Shown: positions 3,460 through 11,472 of the stretch, one piece after another
How the letters are laid out: each line of letters starts with the position of its first letter
Numbering within the stretch: position 1 is the first letter of the stretch
NCBI GenBank assembly: GCA_902797705.1
Contig: CADBTX010000299.1
Coordinates: forward strand, 1-11,472
Length of the DNA: 11,472 bases
Origin: an uncultured Lachnospiraceae bacterium
GTDB lineage: Bacteria > Bacillota > Clostridia > Lachnospirales > Lachnospiraceae
Reading direction: 5' to 3'
Made by a program: the position numbers and the translations under genes
Notes under the pieces: generated by a model
The model's database searches: none
Told to the model about the DNA's origin: nothing
The model's input: only the letters and a program-made list of their open reading frames with translations

Positions 3460-3475
3460 ATCCCTACATAGGCTT

Positions 3476-3602
3476 CCCCCTTTTTGGGGCAAAACATTCC
3501 GGTGGAATGTTTTGAATGGCGTTTAGCAGTGCTATGCACTGCTGCCATCGGTAAGCTGTCAGCCCGAAGGGCTGACTGATGAGGGTTAGAACTCATCCCC
3601 TC
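3476..3602. repeat. Cluster of five hairpins, possible dispersed intergenic repeat
   Basis: Five short inverted repeats lie in a row. They are CCCC/GGGG around 3476-3489; AAAACATTCC-GGT-GGAATGTTTT at 3491-3513 (10-bp perfect stem); AGCAGTGC-TAT-GCACTGCT at 3525-3543 (8 bp); GTCAGCCC-GAA-GGGCTGAC at 3558-3576 (8 bp); and GATGAG/CTCATC at 3578-3597. Loops of three bases in the middle stems make them very stable. There is no tRNA or rRNA signature and no gene on either strand that I would defend. The second hairpin ends in TTTT and may terminate the secreted-protein transcript. The modular structure is like that of REP/MITE-type dispersed repeats or a structured RNA. I see no terminal inverted repeats. 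Confidence 0.6.
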
Positions 3603-3624
3603 AAAATTAAAGCACAGAACAAAA

Positions 3625-3665
3625 CCACAAAATCCCACAAAATTCTCCTTGACAAACCACATAAT
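3625..3665. promoter_or_regulatory. Phased CCACAWAAT direct repeats at the dehydratase promoter
   Basis: CCACAAAAT at 3625-3633, CCACAAAAT at 3635-3643 and CCACATAAT at 3657-3665 start 10 and then 22 bases apart, roughly one and two helical turns. The third copy lies in the promoter spacer. Same-face direct repeats abutting the -35 suggest a regulator site, but the A-rich context lowers confidence. Confidence 0.4.
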
Positions 3666-3677
3666 ATCAAATATAAT
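3649..3677 (+). promoter_or_regulatory. Perfect consensus sigma-A promoter of the dehydratase/activase unit
   Basis: TTGACA (3649-3654), a 17-base spacer and TATAAT (3672-3677) match the consensus at all twelve positions. The start would be at about 3684, leaving a ~98-base leader. That leader contains the shared element at 3698-3712 and a GC-rich 7-bp hairpin (3733-3750, two wobble pairs). Such a strong promoter on a catabolic operon implies control by repression or by the leader. Confidence 0.85.
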
Positions 3678-3697
3678 CCAACAGAAAGCATTTTTGG

Positions 3698-3712
3698 TGG
3701 ACTTATACCTGT
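3698..3712. promoter_or_regulatory. Shared operator-like element, copy 1
   Basis: TGGACTTATACCTGT matches the reverse complement of 7218-7232 at 14 of 15 positions. It begins 20 bases after the -10 box, so about +14 to +28. Its equivalent at the aldolase promoter has the same relative position but opposite orientation. That favours a DNA-binding site over an RNA structure. Confidence 0.6.
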
Positions 3713-3782
3713 TTGATGACCTGGATGTTTGGGGCTGCCCTTTGGCGGCTTCTTAAGAGATGCAAGCATTTGAAAGGATCAA

Positions 3783-6323
3783 ATGAGGGATATGAGTACA
3801 TTCAATACCACGCGTACCGCGAAATCTCCGCGTATAGACGGTCTTATTAAGGAACTGTATGCAAAGATGCCTGAAGTAGAGGCTGCAAGAGCGGTTCTTA
3901 TCACTGAAAGCTACAAAGAGACCGAAAATGAGCCTATGGTGATGCGGAGGGCACATGCTTTCGAGCACATCCTCGATAATATTCCCATAATAATCAGAGA
4001 TAACGAGCTTATAGTCGGTTCCACCACCATTGCCCCCAGGGGCTGCCAGACTTACCCGGAATTTTCCTATGCCTGGCTGGAGCCGGAGTTCGAGACTCTT
4101 GACAGCCGTGAAGCAGATCCCTTTTACATTTCCGATGAAACAAAGGAGACCCTTAAAAAGGTGCATCCTTACTGGAAGGGGAAGACCAGCAGCGAGCTTG
4201 CGGAGTATTACATGACTCCTGAGACCAGGATGGCCATAAAGCACAATGTTTTCACCACGGGTAATTATTTTTACAACGGGGTGGGACATATCACGGTTAA
4301 ATACTGGGAGATCCTTGAAAAGGGCTTTGAGGGTAAGATCCGCGACATAGAGGAGGAACTCTCAAAGTGTGAGATCACCGACGGAGACTATGAGAGGAAG
4401 CACTACCTTCTCAGCGCCATGATCATAAGCTGCAGGGCTGTGATCCGCTATGCGGAGCGATACGCTGCCCTTGCGGAGGAAATGGCTGCAAAGGAAGGGA
4501 ACGAGACTAGACGTAAGGAACTTAAGGCCATAGCCGCAAACTGCAGGAATGTGCCGAGAAAGGGTGCGGGGAGCTTCTATGAAGCCTGCCAGTCATTCTG
4601 GTTCCTTCAGCAGCTGATACAGCTGGAATCCAGCGGACACTCCATATCTCCCGGACGTTTTGACCAGTATATGTATCCCTATTACAAAAAGGATCTTGAG
4701 GAAGGAAGGATAACAAGGGACCAGGCCCAGGAATACCTTGACTGTGTATGGGTCAAGTTCAATGACCTGAATAAGTGCCGTGACGCGGCTTCGGCCAAGG
4801 GCTTTGCCGGTTATTCACTTTTCCAGAATCTGACTGTCGGCGGTATGACGGTGGACGGAAAGGACTCCAGCAACGATCTGACCCTCATGTGCATCTGGGC
4901 TGAGGACAATGTCCATCTTCCGGCGCCCTCCCTGTCCTTAAGGGTGTGGAATCTCACTCCCGCTGAGGTTATGAGGGAAGCTGCGGCTCTCACCAGGACC
5001 GGAATGGGAATGCCTGCATACTATAACGACGAGGTGATAATCCCCTCCATGATGGCAAGGGGCATCAGCGAAGCGGATGCCAGGGATTATGACATCATAG
5101 GCTGTGTTGAGCCCCAGAAGGGCGGAAAGACCATGGGCTGGCATGACGCCGCTTTCTTCAATATGTGCAGGCCCCTGGAATTTGTCTTCTCAAACGGCTA
5201 TGAGGATGGAGAAAGGGTCAGCATACAGACCGGGGAATTAAATGAGCTCAAAACCTTTGAGGATTTCTGGGACGCCTATAAAAAGCAGATGGATTATCAG
5301 ATAAAACTTCTGGTGAATTCCGATAATTCCATAGATCAGGCCCATGCGGAAAGAGTGCCCCTGCCATGGCTGTCCTGTATGGTGGATGACTGTATAAAGA
5401 GAGGACTTACCACGGAGCAGGGCGGAGCCGTGTATAACTTTACCGGGCCCCAGTGCTTCGGTATCGCGAATGCGGCGGATTCTCTCTACGCCATAAGGGA
5501 GCTCGTGTATAACAGGCGTTACATAACTCTTGAAGAGTACAGAAGGGCCATGGTCCTTAATTTCGGCAAAGGCCTTGACGCCGTGTCCACAGCCAATATT
5601 GCTTCGGCGGTGGCAAGGGAGATGACAAGAGACGGGAAAACGCTTTCTGAAGATGAGATCGCCCTGATAATAGCTAATGTCCGGAAGTCTGTTACGGATG
5701 AGGACAGGAGGAAGTTCCAGGCTCTTCTGGATGAGATAGATGCTCTTCCGAAGTACGGAAATGACATTGAGGAGGTGGATTTCTTTGCCAGGGAGACGGC
5801 GTATCTATATACAAAGCCGCTTAACACCTATAAGAATCCGAGAGGCGGAGTTTTCCAGGCCGGTATCTACCCTGTTTCCGCAAATGTGCCTCTGGGAGAG
5901 CAGACCGGAGCCACTCCTGACGGGCGTCTGGCCCACACTCCGGTGGCGGACGGCATAGGCCCCATGGCGGGGCGCGATGTGAACGGCCCCACGGCCACGG
6001 CTAATTCGGTGGCCCGCATAGACCACGGCATTGCCTCCAACGGGACCCTTTTGAACCAGAAATTCCATCCCTCCGCACTGCAGGGGGAGAAGGGACTTGC
6101 GGACTTTGGAAATCTAATACGGACCTATTTTGACAATAAGGGCATGCATATGCAGTTCAATGTCATCGATAGGGAGACCCTTATTGACGCCCAGAAGAAT
6201 CCCGATAAATACAGGGCTCTGGTGGTGAGGGTGGCCGGATATTCCGCTCTTTTCACAACCCTGTCAAAGAATCTTCAGGACGACATCATAAGGCGTACCG
6301 AGCAGACCGCTATTCTGGAGTGA
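3783..6323 (+). CDS. B12-independent propanediol/glycerol dehydratase, glycyl radical enzyme
   Basis: An 846-residue glycyl radical enzyme, expected to dehydrate 1,2-propanediol to propionaldehyde. The thiyl-radical cysteine is C441 in I-I-G-C-V-E-P, with the dehydratase-type E443 two residues on. The glycyl radical site is G819 in RVAGYSALF. Other residues line up with those known from the Clostridium butyricum glycerol dehydratase: H169, H286 (GHSISPGRFDQY) and D455. The GCVEP motif argues against pyruvate formate-lyase (paired Cys). The gene context favours propanediol over choline or glycerol. AAAGGA precedes the ATG at 3783; an in-frame ATG at 3792 is an alternative. No terminal encapsulation peptide is evident. 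The stop overlaps the GGAG of the activase gene's ribosome binding region, so the two are probably translationally coupled. Confidence 0.93.
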   Translation: MRDMSTFNTTRTAKSPRIDGLIKELYAKMPEVEAARAVLITESYKETENEPMVMRRAHAFEHILDNIPIIIRDNELIVGSTTIAPRGCQTYPEFSYAWLEPEFETLDSREADPFYISDETKETLKKVHPYWKGKTSSELAEYYMTPETRMAIKHNVFTTGNYFYNGVGHITVKYWEILEKGFEGKIRDIEEELSKCEITDGDYERKHYLLSAMIISCRAVIRYAERYAALAEEMAAKEGNETRRKELKAIAANCRNVPRKGAGSFYEACQSFWFLQQLIQLESSGHSISPGRFDQYMYPYYKKDLEEGRITRDQAQEYLDCVWVKFNDLNKCRDAASAKGFAGYSLFQNLTVGGMTVDGKDSSNDLTLMCIWAEDNVHLPAPSLSLRVWNLTPAEVMREAAALTRTGMGMPAYYNDEVIIPSMMARGISEADARDYDIIGCVEPQKGGKTMGWHDAAFFNMCRPLEFVFSNGYEDGERVSIQTGELNELKTFEDFWDAYKKQMDYQIKLLVNSDNSIDQAHAERVPLPWLSCMVDDCIKRGLTTEQGGAVYNFTGPQCFGIANAADSLYAIRELVYNRRYITLEEYRRAMVLNFGKGLDAVSTANIASAVAREMTRDGKTLSEDEIALIIANVRKSVTDEDRRKFQALLDEIDALPKYGNDIEEVDFFARETAYLYTKPLNTYKNPRGGVFQAGIYPVSANVPLGEQTGATPDGRLAHTPVADGIGPMAGRDVNGPTATANSVARIDHGIASNGTLLNQKFHPSALQGEKGLADFGNLIRTYFDNKGMHMQFNVIDRETLIDAQKNPDKYRALVVRVAGYSALFTTLSKNLQDDIIRRTEQTAILE

Positions 6324-6325
6324 GT

Positions 6326-7120
6326 ATGGAAAACTATCTTGATACAAAGGGAAGGATATTTGATATACAGAGATATTCCGTCCATGACGGCAGAGGGATA
6401 AGGACCATAGTATTCCTCAAGGGATGCATACTCCGCTGCCGCTGGTGCTGCAATCCTGAATCCCAGAGCTACGAGATCCAGGAGATGAAAAGCCCCGACG
6501 GAAAGATAAAGGTCATGGGAAAGGATGTGACGGTCCGGGAGGTGATGGAGACCGTTAATAAGGATTCCAGATACTATTTCAGGAGCGGCGGCGGCATCAC
6601 CCTGTCGGGGGGAGAAAGCCTGCTGCAGCCTGAATTCGCGAGAGATCTTTTCCGGGCCGCAAAGGACAGGGGATACACCACGGCTCTTGAGAGCATGGCG
6701 GGAGTCAGCTATGACCGGATAGAGATGGTGCTTCCCTACCTTGACCAGTATCTTATGGATATCAAGCACACGGATCCTGAGAAACACCGGAAATTCACCG
6801 GGAAGGAAAACAGCCTGATGCTTGAGAACGCAAAGAAGGTGGCCTCTTCCGGACAGACGGAGCTCATAATCCGCACTCCGGTCATTCCGGGCTTTAATGA
6901 TACCCCGGAGGAGATAAGAGGGATAGCTTCGTTTGCGGCGACGCTTCCCGGAGTAAAGATCATGCATATACTTCCCTATCATCGTCTGGGCTACGACAAG
7001 TACATCGGACTCGGTCGGGAATACACAATGGGGAATGCAGAACCTCCAAATCAACAAAAAATGGAAATCTTAAAATCTATTGTTGAATCATGTGGTTTAA
7101 CGTGTGTAATCGGAGGATAA
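6326..7120 (+). CDS. Glycyl radical enzyme activating enzyme (radical SAM)
   Basis: A 264-residue radical-SAM activase that installs the glycyl radical on the dehydratase encoded just upstream. C34-x3-C38-x2-C41 binds the SAM [4Fe-4S] cluster. T92-L-S-G-G-E-S98 is the SAM-binding GGE motif, and DIKHTDPEKH (145-154) and VIPGFND are typical of GRE activases. I chose the ATG at 6326 because GGAG (6317-6320) precedes it by 5 bases. A GTG at 6320, overlapping the dehydratase stop, would add two residues. Between C41 and the GGE motif there is no ferredoxin-like cysteine insert, unlike many diol-dehydratase activases, so it resembles the pyruvate formate-lyase activase layout. The last ~85 bases are distinctly A+T-richer (about one third G+C by hand count) and contain a promoter-like repeat. 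Confidence 0.92.
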   Translation: MENYLDTKGRIFDIQRYSVHDGRGIRTIVFLKGCILRCRWCCNPESQSYEIQEMKSPDGKIKVMGKDVTVREVMETVNKDSRYYFRSGGGITLSGGESLLQPEFARDLFRAAKDRGYTTALESMAGVSYDRIEMVLPYLDQYLMDIKHTDPEKHRKFTGKENSLMLENAKKVASSGQTELIIRTPVIPGFNDTPEEIRGIASFAATLPGVKIMHILPYHRLGYDKYIGLGREYTMGNAEPPNQQKMEILKSIVESCGLTCVIGG

Positions 7121-7123
7121 GGT

Positions 7124-7156
7124 AACGGCAGCTGTTTTACGGCTGCCGTTCTTTTT
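7124..7156 (+). terminator. Intrinsic terminator after dehydratase/activase unit
   Basis: AACGGCAGC (7124-7132) and GCTGCCGTT (7142-7150) form a perfect 9-bp GC-rich stem with a 9-base loop, followed by CTTTTT. It starts 4 bases after the activase stop and separates unit 1 from the aldolase-shell unit. Confidence 0.9.
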
Positions 7157-7166
7157 AAATTACCTG

Positions 7167-7195
7167 TTGACAGATGTGGTTTTATGATCTATAAT
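7167..7195 (+). promoter_or_regulatory. Perfect consensus sigma-A promoter of the aldolase-shell unit
   Basis: TTGACA (7167-7172), a 17-base spacer and TATAAT (7190-7195) match the consensus fully, as at the dehydratase promoter. The start is expected at about 7202. The spacer holds ATGTGGTTT (7174-7182), the reverse complement of AAACCACAT at 3654-3662 in the other promoter. The ~80-base leader is A/C-rich and looks unstructured. Confidence 0.88.
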
Positions 7196-7217
7196 CGGTC
7201 ACAAAACAACATACATC

Positions 7218-7232
7218 ACAGGTAAAAGTCCA
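7218..7232. promoter_or_regulatory. Shared operator-like element, copy 2
   Basis: ACAGGTAAAAGTCCA is the reverse complement of 3698-3712 at 14 of 15 positions. It begins 22 bases after the -10 box, in the early transcribed region, as in copy 1. Together with the ATGTGGTTT in the spacer it reproduces the 47-bp centre-to-centre spacing of the dehydratase promoter. Confidence 0.6.
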
Positions 7233-7283: not shown

Positions 7284-8096
7284 ATGCAGAACGAGTTTGA
7301 AATCAAGAAACAGATCCTGGATATAGGAAAAAGGATCTATAACAGGGGGATGGTTGCGGCCAATGACGGTAATATCTCCGTTAAGCTCAATGACCACGAG
7401 TTCTTATGTACTCCCACAGGCGTATCAAAGGGATTTATGACCCCTGAGATGATCTGCAAGGTTAATGAAAAGGGTGAGGTCATTCAGGCTACAGCTCCCT
7501 ACCGTCCTTCATCAGAGATAAAGATGCACATGAGGGTTTATGAAAAGAGGCCCGATGTAGGTGCAGTGGTGCATGCGCATCCCACCTTCGCTACCAGCTT
7601 TGCAATAGCGGGGATACCTCTTACACAGCCCATAATGCCCGAAGCTGTGATCTCTCTTGGCTGCGTTCCCATCGCCAAGTACGGCACGCCTTCGACAAAT
7701 GAGATCCCCGATGCGGTAGAGGAATATCTTCCCTACTTTGACGCGGTTCTTTTGGAGAGCCACGGAGCCCTTTCCTATTCGGTAGATCTTACTCAGGCAT
7801 ACTACAAGATGGAATCCCTTGAGTTCTACGCAGAGCTTCTCTATAAGTCAAGGATGCTTGGCGGTCCCAAGGAATTCGATCAGAAGACGGTTGAAAAGCT
7901 TTATGAGATCAGAAGGAAGATGGGTCTTCCCGGAAAGCATCCCGCTAACCTCTGCCAGAATAAGGGTGGCAGCAACTGCCATAACTGCGGTAACGGCTGC
8001 GGCAGCGTTTCAACAGGTGGAAGCAGCGAGGCAAATGCAGATCCCGCACTTATTGCAGAGATAACCAGAAAGGTTATGGAACAGTTAGGGAAATAA
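7284..8096 (+). CDS. Class II aldolase (L-fuculose-1-phosphate aldolase type) with C-terminal encapsulation peptide
   Basis: A 270-residue zinc-dependent class II aldolase. Expected reaction: fuculose-1-P or rhamnulose-1-P to DHAP plus L-lactaldehyde. Candidate ligands are H97 and H99 (V-H-A-H-P) and H160 (ESHGA), with E78 (PSSE) as catalytic acid/base. All are offset by +5 from E. coli FucA E73/H92/H94/H155, so numbering supports the family. The catalytic domain ends near residue 218. A linker follows with four cysteines, C224-x7-C232-x2-C235-x3-C239, and a Gly/Ser-rich stretch. The final helix (about 252-270, DPALIAEITRKVMEQLGK) fits a microcompartment encapsulation peptide. AGGAGG (7270-7275) precedes the ATG. 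First gene of unit 2; the aldehyde dehydrogenase gene follows after 11 bases. Confidence 0.92.
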   Translation: MQNEFEIKKQILDIGKRIYNRGMVAANDGNISVKLNDHEFLCTPTGVSKGFMTPEMICKVNEKGEVIQATAPYRPSSEIKMHMRVYEKRPDVGAVVHAHPTFATSFAIAGIPLTQPIMPEAVISLGCVPIAKYGTPSTNEIPDAVEEYLPYFDAVLLESHGALSYSVDLTQAYYKMESLEFYAELLYKSRMLGGPKEFDQKTVEKLYEIRRKMGLPGKHPANLCQNKGGSNCHNCGNGCGSVSTGGSSEANADPALIAEITRKVMEQLGK

Positions 8097-8107
8097 AGAA
8101 AGGAAGC

Positions 8108-9502
8108 ATGATGGCAGTAGACGAAAGAATGGTCCGTGACATCGTGCAGGAGGTCGTGGCAAAAATGCAGATCTCCGGAGATGCGGGAAAGATGCACGGT
8201 GTATTCGCCGACATGAACGAATGCATCAGCGCCGCGAAGGAAGCGCAGAAAAAGATCCGCGTCATGTCACTGGATCAGAGAGAAAAGATCATCTCCATCA
8301 TAAGGAGAAAGATAAGAGAAAACGCAGAAACCCTGGCCCGTATGGGAGTTTCGGAGACGGGAATGGGAAATGTGGGGGATAAGATCTTAAAGCACCATCT
8401 GGTAGCCGACAAGTGTCCCGGAACAGAGGACATCACTACGGTGGCCTGGAGCGGCGACAGAGGACTGTCCCTTACGGAAATGGGACCCTTCGGGGTGATA
8501 GGAGCCATCACACCCTGCACCAACCCTTCGGAAACGGTGCTCTGCAATGTGATAGGCATGCTGGCCGGAGGGAATACGGTGGTGTTCAATCCCCATCCCA
8601 AGGCCGTGAAGACCTCCATTTTCGCCATAAACCTCTGCAACGAGGCTTCCCTTGAAGGGGGCGGACCGGACAATATAGCCTGCACCTGCGAAAAACCCAC
8701 TATGGACAGCAGTGCGGTAATGATGAAACATCCGGACATCTCACTGATAGCCGCTACCGGAGGCCCCGGAGTGGTGACGGCGGTGCTCTCCTCCGGAAAG
8801 AGAGGCATCGGCGCCGGAGCCGGAAATCCTCCCGCCCTTGTGGATGAGACCGCGGACGTGAGACATGCGGCAGAAGCCATAGTAAACGGCTGTACCTTTG
8901 ACAACAATCTTCCCTGCATAGCAGAAAAGGAGATCGTCTGTGTAGAGTCGGTGGCTGATGAACTGATGCACTACATGCTGACCGAGCAGGGCTGTTACCT
9001 TGCCAGCGAGGCCGAGCAGCAGGCCCTTATAAAGAGGGTAATAGATGAAAAGGGTTCACCCATGAGGGACTGCGTCGGAAGAAGCGCAAAGGTCCTTCTC
9101 GGAATGATCGGGGTAACGGTGCCGGAGGATATCCGCTGCATAACCTTCTTCGGTGAAAAGGAGAATCCGCTTATCAGTACGGAACTCATGATGCCGATCC
9201 TCGGAGTGGTAAAGGCAAAGGATTTTGATGACGCCGTGGAAAAGGCCGTGTGGCTTGAGCATGGCAACAGGCATTCGGCACATATCCATTCAAAGAACGT
9301 GGACCATATAACACAGTACGCCAGAGCGATCGATACGGCCATACTTGTAAAGAACGGCCCCAGTTACTCGGCGATAGGGTTCGGAGGAGAGGGCTATTGC
9401 ACCTTCACCATAGCAAGCCGGACCGGAGAGGGACTGACAAGCGCTTCCAGCTTCACAAAGAGAAGAAGATGCGTGATGGTTGACAGTCTCTGCATACGAT
9501 AA
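8108..9502 (+). CDS. CoA-acylating propionaldehyde dehydrogenase (PduP-like), microcompartment-targeted
   Basis: A 464-residue aldehyde dehydrogenase of the PduP/EutE type that converts propionaldehyde plus CoA and NAD+ to propionyl-CoA. The nucleophile is C270 in F-D-N-N-L-P-C. Family signatures include GPFGVIGAITPCTNPSET (126-143) and a nucleotide-binding TGGPGVV (217-223). Residues 4-22 (VDERMVRDIVQEVVAKMQI) form an amphipathic helix like the encapsulation peptide of PduP, separated from the catalytic domain by a short linker. Two tandem ATGs start the frame (8108 and 8111), with AAAGGA just upstream. The alcohol dehydrogenase gene follows after 21 bases. The reductive partner regenerates NAD+ inside the shell. 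The substrate is inferred from the dehydratase; longer or other aldehydes are possible. Confidence 0.92.
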   Translation: MMAVDERMVRDIVQEVVAKMQISGDAGKMHGVFADMNECISAAKEAQKKIRVMSLDQREKIISIIRRKIRENAETLARMGVSETGMGNVGDKILKHHLVADKCPGTEDITTVAWSGDRGLSLTEMGPFGVIGAITPCTNPSETVLCNVIGMLAGGNTVVFNPHPKAVKTSIFAINLCNEASLEGGGPDNIACTCEKPTMDSSAVMMKHPDISLIAATGGPGVVTAVLSSGKRGIGAGAGNPPALVDETADVRHAAEAIVNGCTFDNNLPCIAEKEIVCVESVADELMHYMLTEQGCYLASEAEQQALIKRVIDEKGSPMRDCVGRSAKVLLGMIGVTVPEDIRCITFFGEKENPLISTELMMPILGVVKAKDFDDAVEKAVWLEHGNRHSAHIHSKNVDHITQYARAIDTAILVKNGPSYSAIGFGGEGYCTFTIASRTGEGLTSASSFTKRRRCVMVDSLCIR

Positions 9503-9523
9503 AAGAAAGGAGAGACAACTTTA

Positions 9524-10750
9524 ATGTCAGTTAATGCCAATGATATAGAAGCCATAGTCCGTCAGGTATTGAGCACCATGGACGGCAAGGGAACCGCATC
9601 TCCGGCTCCCTATGTATCCGGCGGAAACGGCGGCGGATATGATATCCCGAAGACCGCCCACTGTGCATTCCTCACAGACTTAAAGCACTTTGAGATAAAA
9701 GAATTCCCCATGCCTGAAGTGGGAGATGATGACATCCTGGTGAAGGTGGAAGGCACAGGTATCTGCGGAACGGATGCAGCTGAGTACAAATTCGATCCCT
9801 TTAAGTACATCCCCATCAATCTCGGACACGAGGGAACGGGAACGGTAGTAAAGGTCGGAAAGAATGTAAGCCGTGATTCTGCAGGAAAGCCCTTAGGCTT
9901 AGGAGATAAGGTCGTTACCTGCATGATCTTCAAGGATGATCCCTCGATCACCATGTTCGACTTAAATAAGCAGAACGTGGGCGAGGCAGATGTATACGGT
10001 CTTATACCGGATGACGAGAGACATCTCACAGGATGGTTTTCCGATTACATCCTGATCCGGGGCGGATCCACAGTATTCAACGTATCCGATATGGATCTTG
10101 ATTCCAGGATACTGATCGAGCCCAGCGCGGTACTGATCCACGCGGTAGAAAGGGCGAAGAGTACCGGAATACTCAGGTTCAATTCAAAGGTTGTGGTCCA
10201 GGGCTGCGGTCCCATCGGTCTTATCTGCGTAGCGGTACTCCGGACCATGGGTATCACAAATATCGTAACGGTGGACGGAAATGACCAGAGACTGGAGTTC
10301 TCCCATGAGATGGGTGCCACAGGTCACGTAAACTTCATGAACCATAAGGGTATCGAAGCCCTTACGGAAGCAGTGAAGAAGGAGTTTGGCGGAGATCTGG
10401 CGGATTTCGCATTCCAGTGTACAGGTTCACCTGCCGGACACAGCAATATCTATAAATTCATAAGGAACGGCGGCGGGCTTTGCGAGCTTGGATTCTTTAT
10501 AAACGGCGGTGACGCCACCATAAATCCTCACTTCGATATCTGCTCAAAGGAGATCACAACGGTAGGCTCCTGGGTTTACACCTTAAGAGATTACGCTACC
10601 ACCTTTGAATTCCTGAAGGCAGCGAAGAGGGACGGGATCCCCATGAGCAAGCTTATAACACACAGGTTCGATCTCAAGGATATCAACGAAGCCTTTGAGA
10701 CAAATATAGCCCAGAAGGGTCTGAAGATCGCCGTAATGAGCGGCAGATGA
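9524..10750 (+). CDS. Zinc-type alcohol dehydrogenase with N-terminal encapsulation peptide
   Basis: A 408-residue medium-chain (MDR) dehydrogenase. In this pathway it would reduce propionaldehyde to 1-propanol and/or lactaldehyde to 1,2-propanediol with NADH. Catalytic zinc candidates are C81 (G-I-C-G-T-D), H102 and E103 (G-H-E-G-T-G), with E199 a possible fourth ligand. The Rossmann motif G227-C-G-P-I-G232 and D251 at the end of the second strand point to NAD rather than NADP. The four-cysteine structural zinc lobe is absent. An N-terminal amphipathic helix (about 5-19, ANDIEAIVRQVLSTM) plus a Gly-rich linker (32-38) look like an encapsulation peptide. Classical PduQ is an iron-type enzyme, so this is a different family in the same role. 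An AAAGGAGAG ribosome binding site lies about 11 bases before the ATG. Confidence 0.9.
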   Translation: MSVNANDIEAIVRQVLSTMDGKGTASPAPYVSGGNGGGYDIPKTAHCAFLTDLKHFEIKEFPMPEVGDDDILVKVEGTGICGTDAAEYKFDPFKYIPINLGHEGTGTVVKVGKNVSRDSAGKPLGLGDKVVTCMIFKDDPSITMFDLNKQNVGEADVYGLIPDDERHLTGWFSDYILIRGGSTVFNVSDMDLDSRILIEPSAVLIHAVERAKSTGILRFNSKVVVQGCGPIGLICVAVLRTMGITNIVTVDGNDQRLEFSHEMGATGHVNFMNHKGIEALTEAVKKEFGGDLADFAFQCTGSPAGHSNIYKFIRNGGGLCELGFFINGGDATINPHFDICSKEITTVGSWVYTLRDYATTFEFLKAAKRDGIPMSKLITHRFDLKDINEAFETNIAQKGLKIAVMSGR

Positions 10751-10796: not shown

Positions 10797-11111
10797 ATGG
10801 AAGAAGCAGTAGGGATTTTAGAAGTATTCGGTCTCGTAACTGCATTTATGGCGGCTGATGCCGGATGCAAGGCGGGCAGAGTATGGCTGGAACCTTTTGA
10901 TAAGAATAAGCCGGCAAATGCCGATGCCCTTCCGGTCCCGCTTCTCGTCACCATCAAGTTCAGAGGCAGCGTTTCGGATGTGGAGGCTGCCATGGCAGCG
11001 GGAGTTGAGGTGGCAGAGTCCTTAACCGGGATAGTGCAGAAGCATATAATTCCGAGACCTACCGGCGATACAGAAAAGATGCTTAAGATCAATTGTTTTG
11101 ATAAGAATTAA
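10797..11111 (+). CDS. BMC-domain hexameric shell protein with lengthened pore region
   Basis: A 104-residue single-domain BMC (Pfam BMC fold) shell protein: N-terminal EAVGILEVFGLVTAFMAADA, strand LLVTIKFRGSV (49-59), and the H-x-I-P-R-P signature (83-88). Compared with the next gene product, the segment between the first helix and that strand is about 9 residues longer (W30 to L50). It reads EPFDKNKPANADALPVP, at the place where a standard pore loop (K-I-G-S-G) would sit. The domain is not circularly permuted, unlike PduU/EutS. Cys24 and Cys100 are additional oddities. AGGAAAGAT precedes the ATG. It is followed after 14 bases by a canonical BMC-H gene. Hexameric assembly is inferred from the family. 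Confidence 0.9.
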   Translation: MEEAVGILEVFGLVTAFMAADAGCKAGRVWLEPFDKNKPANADALPVPLLVTIKFRGSVSDVEAAMAAGVEVAESLTGIVQKHIIPRPTGDTEKMLKINCFDKN

Positions 11112-11125
11112 GGAGGTAAAAAGTT

Positions 11126-11401
11126 ATGTCACAGGAAGCACTGGGAATGGTTGAGACCAGAGGTCTTACCGCAGCCATTGAGGCAGCTGATGCAATGACA
11201 AAGGCAGCTGAGGTCAGCCTCATAGGAACGGAGAAGATCGGTTCAGGTCTTGTAACCGTTATGGTCCGCGGAGATGTAGGAGCAGTTAAGGCATCTGTTG
11301 AAGCCGGAGCAGCAAACGCATCGAGACTTGGAGAACTGGTAGCGAGCCATGTAATTCCCCGTCCTCATAACGACGTGGAAAAGATCCTGCCGAAGATCTG
11401 A
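11126..11401 (+). CDS. Canonical BMC-H shell protein (PduA/CcmK-like)
   Basis: A 91-residue BMC-domain protein of the usual length for a hexameric shell tile. It begins [20 protein letters not shown] and has the pore motif K37-I-G-S-G41, strand [13 protein letters not shown] (42-54), and H75-V-I-P-R-P80. It likely forms the bulk facet and the pore for propanediol and other small substrates. AAGGAGG (11109-11115) precedes the ATG by 10 bases and starts on the last base of the preceding stop codon. The clean, standard sequence contrasts with the preceding shell protein. Confidence 0.95.
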
Positions 11402-11416
11402 TAAAGGAAGAAGCAA

Positions 11417-11472
11417 ATGGGGAAAGCATACGGATTGATTGAAATAACAGGAGTGGTAGCCGCCATGGACGC
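11417..11472 (+). CDS. Third BMC-domain shell protein, N-terminal fragment (cut by window end)
   Basis: An ATG at 11417, preceded by AAAGGAAG (11403-11410), opens a frame running to the window end. It reads MGKAYGLIEITGVVAAMD, the typical first strand and helix start of a BMC domain (compare [16 protein letters not shown] in the preceding gene). Whether it is a single-domain hexamer or a tandem-domain trimer cannot be seen from 18 residues. It starts 15 bases after the preceding stop and belongs to the same operon. Confidence 0.85.
   Translation, partial: MGKAYGLIEITGVVAAMD

Follow-up and report, generated by a model that had tools for sequence, protein, structure and literature searches.

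Why should two promoters of one gene cluster carry the same two short elements at the same places but in opposite orientations? This question is raised by a stretch of 11,472 nucleotides from an uncultured Lachnospiraceae bacterium (assembly GCA_902797705.1, contig CADBTX010000299.1), which is referred to here as the window and represents an entire contig (C299) of a genome, G000, of 2.29 Mb and 80% completeness. Domain searches place the first half of a glycyl-radical microcompartment cluster in the window, where it is arranged in two transcription units headed by a diol dehydratase gene and an aldolase gene. Both units are preceded by a perfect TTGACA-17-TATAAT promoter (at 3649 and 7167), and these were the only two found in the window at spacings of 16-18 on either strand. 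The original prediction, made from the letters alone, described a 9-mer in the spacer of the dehydratase promoter with its exact reverse complement in the spacer of the aldolase promoter, a 15-mer in the early transcript that recurs as a reverse complement at 14 of 15 positions, and a centre-to-centre distance of 47 bp between the two elements in both promoters, all of which was borne out. The positions of these elements and of the half-sites that accompany them are as follows.

3622 to 3629, plus strand: upstream half-site AAACCACA, dehydratase promoter, with the spacer copy 32 bp downstream
3649 to 3677, plus strand: dehydratase promoter, TTGACA-17-TATAAT
3654 to 3662, plus strand: spacer half-site AAACCACAT of the dehydratase promoter
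3698 to 3712, plus strand: leader element TGGACTTATACCTGT, lineage-specific
7090 to 7098, minus strand: extra copy of the 9-mer in the end of the activase gene
7167 to 7195, plus strand: aldolase promoter, TTGACA-17-TATAAT
7174 to 7182, minus strand: spacer half-site ATGTGGTTT of the aldolase promoter, exact reverse complement of AAACCACAT
7203 to 7212, plus strand: leader half-site AAAACAACAT, diverging partner of 7174-7182 at 29 bp start to start
7218 to 7232, minus strand: leader element ACAGGTAAAAGTCCA, reverse complement of 3698-3712 at 14 of 15 positions

The spacer elements are very probably half-sites of one operator system that serves a DeoR-family repressor encoded in the same cluster, a reading which rests on sequence comparison. 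The half-site consensus is about 10 bp long (AAAACMACAT), and AAACCACAT and ATGTGGTTT are one copy each. The bare 9-mer is uninformative on a genome-wide scale. It was found 17 times in G000 against 4 times for a reversed-pattern control, but this count says little because a 9-mer would by its length alone be expected about that often and 13 of the copies lie within likely coding frames, as judged from mechanical open reading frame calls and reading by eye. The copy at 7090-7098, for example, is probably set by its Cys-Gly codons, and two further copies outside likely genes (L009 and L012) did not match the promoter geometry by eye. The direct pair AAMCMACA-N0-28-AAMCMACA occurs once in G000, at 3622-3661, and a diverging pair (N15-30) also occurs once, at 7175-7211, where AAACAACA at 7204-7211 follows the reversed spacer copy by 29 bp start to start; the control gave none in either case. 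Six strict half-sites are present in the window, of which four are in the two promoters and two are within genes (7091 and 9249). The spacer sites therefore have their conserved partners in the half-sites at 3622-3629 and 7203-7212 and not in the leader elements with which the original prediction had joined them into a single two-site operator.

The half-site was found to be conserved in related loci. In 11 of 13 dehydratase promoters TTGACA is immediately followed by NNCCACA, and 12 of 14 aldolase promoters have TGTGG at the equivalent point of the spacer, so the flip from promoter to promoter is itself conserved (G043, with only 14 bp upstream of the dehydratase gene, was left out of the promoter-pair tests). 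The spacer element was retained while the remaining promoter sequence changed. In most relatives examined the half-site recurs at both promoters, usually in multiple copies and in both orientations. We scanned both strands of the 260 bp upstream in filtered loci for AA[ACG]C[AC]ACA and observed 63 half-sites in 58 dehydratase upstream regions, where dinucleotide shuffles give 6.75, and 53 half-sites in 30 aldolase upstream regions, where 5.75 are expected on the same basis. The half-site is present in 66 of 110 distinct 200-bp upstream regions, and 12 of the 18 aldolase upstream regions L139-L156 contain at least one strict copy.

The distances between half-sites are also regular. All 52 same-strand pair distances of up to 60 bp fall within 9-11, 19-23, 30-34, 40-43 or 52-55 and all 29 converging distances within 16, 25-26, 36-37, 46-49 or 57-58, both counts being without a shuffled phasing control, and nine of ten diverging pairs are 29 bp apart. 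The bands are about one helical turn from each other and the gaps between them are empty. The aldolase promoter of a distant congener, G020, reads AAAACAACAT-AAAACCACAT-N6-ATGTGGTTTT-ATGTTGAC, with two 10-bp units in direct and then two in inverted orientation. The pair distances and these tandem units give the arrangement expected of a DeoR-type operator, namely repeated half-sites with a period of about 10-11 bp near the promoter.

No gene for such a repressor is present in the window, as had been stated, and the likely protein is encoded about 3.5 kb beyond its end in the same gene cluster. Contig C227 most likely continues the cluster because its first 87 bases match the last 87 of the window exactly.

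11386 to 11472, plus strand: 87-bp exact overlap between the end of the window and the start of contig C227
C227:3611-4384 (about 14,996 to 15,769 in window coordinates): DeoR-family repressor gene

The encoded protein has an HTH_DeoR domain (PF08220, 2.3e-15) and a DeoRC sensor domain (PF00455, 2e-48), and its gene lies just before that of an FGGY kinase, which we read as a rhamnulokinase. In L052, L048, L096 and L114 the DeoR-family gene is found immediately after the last shell gene, on one contig each, and the L052 protein used as a query gave one match in G000. The regulator gene thus lies with its predicted targets in G000 (by way of C227), in these four relatives and, by match coordinates, in the distant congeners. 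An ortholog (E <= 1e-60) is present in 41 of 117 genomes. Of the 33 genomes whose aldolase match is below 1e-124, a threshold that takes in one genome at 2.1e-125, 30 have it, against 11 of the 84 others, with the genome of the window included in the count. Furthermore, among 44 loci that passed the filters and have at least 7 kb of downstream sequence, two or more half-sites precede the dehydratase gene in 19 of 22 loci with the aldolase and in none of 22 without it.

The 22 aldolase-less loci may be under different regulation; two of them, L067 and L090, have one half-site before the dehydratase gene, and a tblastn search for the DeoR ortholog in their 10-kb flanks was positive only for L057. 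A rearrangement of the units was seen in the more distant congeners G019, G020, G021, G023 and G024, where the repressor gene is directly 5' of the dehydratase gene and the aldolase gene is several kb upstream in the same direction. Within the window, a TetR-family gene at 2223-2840 was considered as the regulator and set aside because it has inverted repeats of its own and because inspection by eye revealed no such gene in the loci of five relatives. These repeats are GTAAACAATCGTTTAC and its exact reverse complement at 2170-2185 and 2215-2230, two near-palindromes at the start of the gene which are likely to be its own operators.

We infer DeoR-type binding, repression and an inducer as follows. 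The repressor would bind several of the half-sites of about 10 bp, spaced by approximately whole helical turns, and these would be the direct pair at 3622-3629 and 3654-3661 (32 bp apart) in the dehydratase promoter and the diverging pair at 7174-7182 and 7203-7212 (29 bp start to start) in the aldolase promoter. Since one half-site of each set lies between the -35 and -10 boxes, repressor bound in the spacer, helped by the neighbouring half-site, would obstruct RNA polymerase at two promoters that are otherwise perfect. The flipped orientation would follow from half-sites that work in either orientation. A sugar-phosphate or related metabolite derived from rhamnose or fucose may release the repressor, so that both gene sets would stay off until the sugar is present. 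This last step is suggested by the DeoRC sensor domain together with expression data from C. phytofermentans, where the homologous locus, which includes a DeoR-family regulator, is described as induced 15-87 fold by fucose or rhamnose (PMC3557285). If the repressor gene is part of the aldolase and shell transcript, as gene order suggests, the repressor would control itself as well.

Several observations weigh against this DeoR operator. L053 and L054 are the exceptions at both promoters, with no spacer site as called and half-sites elsewhere, and a converging pair (N8-30) was not found anywhere in G000. In three of the 22 loci with the aldolase (L087, L103 and L110) the dehydratase gene is preceded by at most one half-site, and six of the 18 aldolase upstream regions (L144, L148, L149, L151, L155 and L156) have no strict half-site; in L148, L149, L155 and L156 the upstream stretch resembles the end of another gene and the promoter may be elsewhere. 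Half-sites and regulator can be paired directly in only the nine loci that reach the regulator, and L057 is contrary, having a repressor gene (57% identity) and no half-site upstream of the dehydratase gene. Eight genomes have a repressor ortholog and no aldolase match at 1e-30. The half-site and co-occurrence counts also take related sequences as independent. In C. phytofermentans the regulator gene itself is described as rising only about twofold (PMC3557285). The leader element, in turn, remains outside this explanation altogether.

The leader element TGGACTTWTACCTG is real but young, a separate addition specific to its lineage. With its middle base left free, the 15-mer has exactly two exact matches in G000, both at these promoters. 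With up to three mismatches, it gave 176 matches in G000 against 343 for the control. Across 48 congeneric genomes five exact copies of TGGACTTNTACCTG were found, two in G000, two in G040 and one in G035, and both copies in G040 are at the same promoters and flipped as in G000. The promoter pairs of these two species are the only ones among 13 with the element, which is missing from the other 11. Orthologous loci therefore sustain the original prediction for the spacer half-site and not for the leader element. In a sample of 397 genomes of the family, 34 exact matches were found in 31 genomes, two of them the window's own, which is no more than background since the reversed-pattern control gave about 75. 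An apparent shortened relative of the element was seen by alignment in G006 and G025, in the dehydratase leader only.

A role for the leader elements as the site of a second, putative regulator (a roadblock or co-regulator), whose regulon would be the two promoters and which would have been gained in the common ancestor of G000 and G040, is a tentative choice that we put at slightly under an even chance. An exact 14-mer is kept at both promoters of two species though much of the surrounding dehydratase leader differs in the alignment, and four of the five exact copies in the 48 congeneric genomes are at these promoters. No candidate gene was found for such a protein, however, and in the family sample the motif is not a recurrent one, the control having more matches; exact copies are also missing from both promoters of the other four species at the level of about 90% dehydratase identity. 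The original prediction of one looping or two-headed protein that reads spacer and leader elements together now appears highly improbable. E. coli DeoR and LacI are looping repressors with spaced operators, and the present promoters resemble those systems in having multiple sites around a single promoter. The identical distance of 47 bp at both promoters of G000 and the joint flip of both elements in G000 and G040 would fit such a protein. In G040, however, the two elements at the dehydratase promoter are 44 bp apart (leader position 18 against 21 in G000), which is off by about one third of a turn and therefore disfavours a rigid two-headed protein. Eleven of 13 pairs lack the leader element, most of them with the spacer site in place, and the two elements have no common sequence. 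A protein bound to DNA remains the favoured interpretation for the spacer element, which is shared, free in orientation and conserved in relatives, and no longer for spacer and leader as a single unit. Recombination between the inverted 15-mers, which bracket a 3.5-kb unit with the dehydratase and activase genes, would make this unit an invertible segment, a proposal to which we give almost no credence: gene order and orientation are equal in the window, L048, L049, L050, L052 and L096 although only L052 among these relatives has the repeats, the ten window proteins scanned contain no recombinase domain, and the order of the two elements is not that of one nested inverted repeat.

The flipped orientation had also been taken to argue against an RNA motif, and this argument fails because reversed copies in two transcripts are complementary, as pairing between RNAs requires. 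The leader elements lie at about +15 to +31 of each transcript (assuming that +1 is 7 bases after the -10 box), and like messenger RNAs that pair in trans the two transcripts have complementary stretches of 13-16 nucleotides. Pairing of the two leaders, which would link the fates of the core-enzyme and shell messages, is nevertheless unlikely and we rate it below a second DNA-binding site, with the remaining weight on a neutral or some other role. Complementarity is 14 of 15 in G000 and 15 of 16 in G040, and a different complementary 13-15-mer occurs in approximately the same slot of the dehydratase leader in G030, G014, G009 and G039; the six complementary pairs thus have unrelated sequences in two clades. 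The observed score was reached in 7, 1, 0 and 0 of 3000 dinucleotide-shuffled leader pairs for G000, G040, G030 and G039 respectively, and by eye one position per clade is altered on both sides. The cofold gain is -16.9 to -19.0 kcal/mol in the six pairs compared with -3.8 to -7.8 kcal/mol in the other seven, yet mismatched leaders from different clades reach -15.2 kcal/mol. By this measure G000, G040, G009 and G039 each pair best, among 13 leaders, with their own partner, which is not so for G014 and G030. Seven of the 13 pairs, including the four species closest to G000 and G040, have no 13-16-base complement, against six which have one. The sequence of clade B, AAAGCAACA, fits the repressor half-site, both G000 and G040 have a central A-A mismatch, and the co-varying positions are at or near the ends of the matches where chance extension is easy. 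In G030, G014 and G039 the dehydratase-leader elements are unpaired at 0.29-0.38 while the leader averages are 0.48-0.53; the aldolase-side element of G039, which was not located, contributes no value. Energies from duplexfold are unremarkable for the matched pairs and their ranking does not discriminate; in the 260-bp upstream regions of 41 pairs mismatched combinations score equally high, partly because the repressor half-sites themselves match. The more specific proposal that trans pairing couples the amounts of core enzyme and shell (or the places of their translation), with the pairing sequence replaced wholesale between clades and complementarity kept, is quite improbable. In L051, L109, L114 and L183/L133 the dehydratase and aldolase leaders share an exact 13-15-base reverse complement, TTTCTGTTGCTTT, which is unrelated to the element of the window.

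The genes that follow the two promoters, and the hairpin that separates the units, are listed below.

3783 to 6323, plus strand: glycyl-radical diol dehydratase (PF02901, PF01228)
6326 to 7120, plus strand: radical-SAM activase for the dehydratase, from domain profile searches
7124 to 7150, plus strand: intrinsic-terminator-like hairpin in the gap between the activase gene and the aldolase promoter, fold of -20.5 kcal/mol (the scan has a background of 3.5 comparable sites per shuffle)
7284 to 8096, plus strand: microcompartment class II aldolase (fuculose/rhamnulose-phosphate type), a domain profile match with no NCBIfam model above cut-off
8108 to 9502, plus strand: aldehyde dehydrogenase of the CoA-acylating type (NF011927 above cut-off)
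9524 to 10750, plus strand: zinc-type alcohol dehydrogenase, domain profile match
10797 to 11111 and 11126 to 11401, plus strand: two bacterial microcompartment shell protein genes, profile matches
about 11417, plus strand: start of a third shell gene

On C227 the order is a shell gene, PduL (PF06130), a PduS-like protein (Complex1_51K, RnfC_N), a shell gene, the DeoR-family gene and the FGGY kinase. This locus is a GRM5-type (rhamnose/fucose) microcompartment cluster. The glycyl-radical enzyme with its activase, and the class II aldolase, aldehyde dehydrogenase, alcohol dehydrogenase and shell genes, are in the window, and PduL, the PduS-like protein and the DeoR-family regulator are on C227, joined through the 87-bp overlap. 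An Rfam scan gave no match above the gathering score in the window. An interspersed repeat of about 120 bp lies at 3470-3588, just 5' of the dehydratase promoter; it has 35 full or partial matches in G000 (itself counted), one of which, at 94%, is at C227:7613-7724 beyond the end of the cluster. In L051 a methyl-accepting chemotaxis receptor with a dCache domain (7782-9842) is located between the activase and aldolase genes, a position which hints that chemotaxis is tied to the microcompartment, and a gap of similar size separates these genes in L109 and L123.

The GRM5 locus type and its DeoR-family regulator are already in print (PMC4207490, PMC3557285). As described there for C. phytofermentans and Roseburia inulinivorans, such loci have the glycyl-radical dehydratase, activase, class II aldolase and zinc-type alcohol dehydrogenase found here, and likewise PduL, a PduS-like protein, shell proteins and the DeoR-family regulator; a DUF336 protein and a hydrolase are named as ancillary GRM5 genes (PMC4207490). 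The present cluster has two promoters, with the dehydratase and activase as their own unit followed by the terminator-like hairpin, and its regulator is followed by the FGGY kinase, whereas one long operon and a separate regulator transcript are described in C. phytofermentans (PMC3557285). The operator resembles that of RhaR-type regulators in that a DeoR-family protein with a local regulon is associated with repeated half-sites of about 10-11 bp period. The RhaR motifs are described as imperfect direct repeats with a period of 10-11 bp, in four groups with their own sequences, and Clostridia are not among the lineages that the figure legend names (Rodionova et al. 2013, PMC3870299). Here, in contrast, the half-site is AAAACMACAT, its copies are in direct, converging and diverging order, and it is found at microcompartment genes. 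One of the DeoR-family proteins that regulate sugar use in C. bescii has a tandem-repeat site (PMC8579813). An operator for the GRM5 DeoR-family regulator was not seen in our literature searches, within the portions of the sources that were available, and the words 'promoter', 'motif' and 'operator' are absent from the text of PMC3557285.

These results offer a concrete predicted operator, built from AAAACMACAT half-sites, for the regulator of those microcompartments in which rhamnose and fucose are converted to 1,2-propanediol and beyond. The complementary leader element would gain in general interest should it prove to couple enzyme and shell through RNA.

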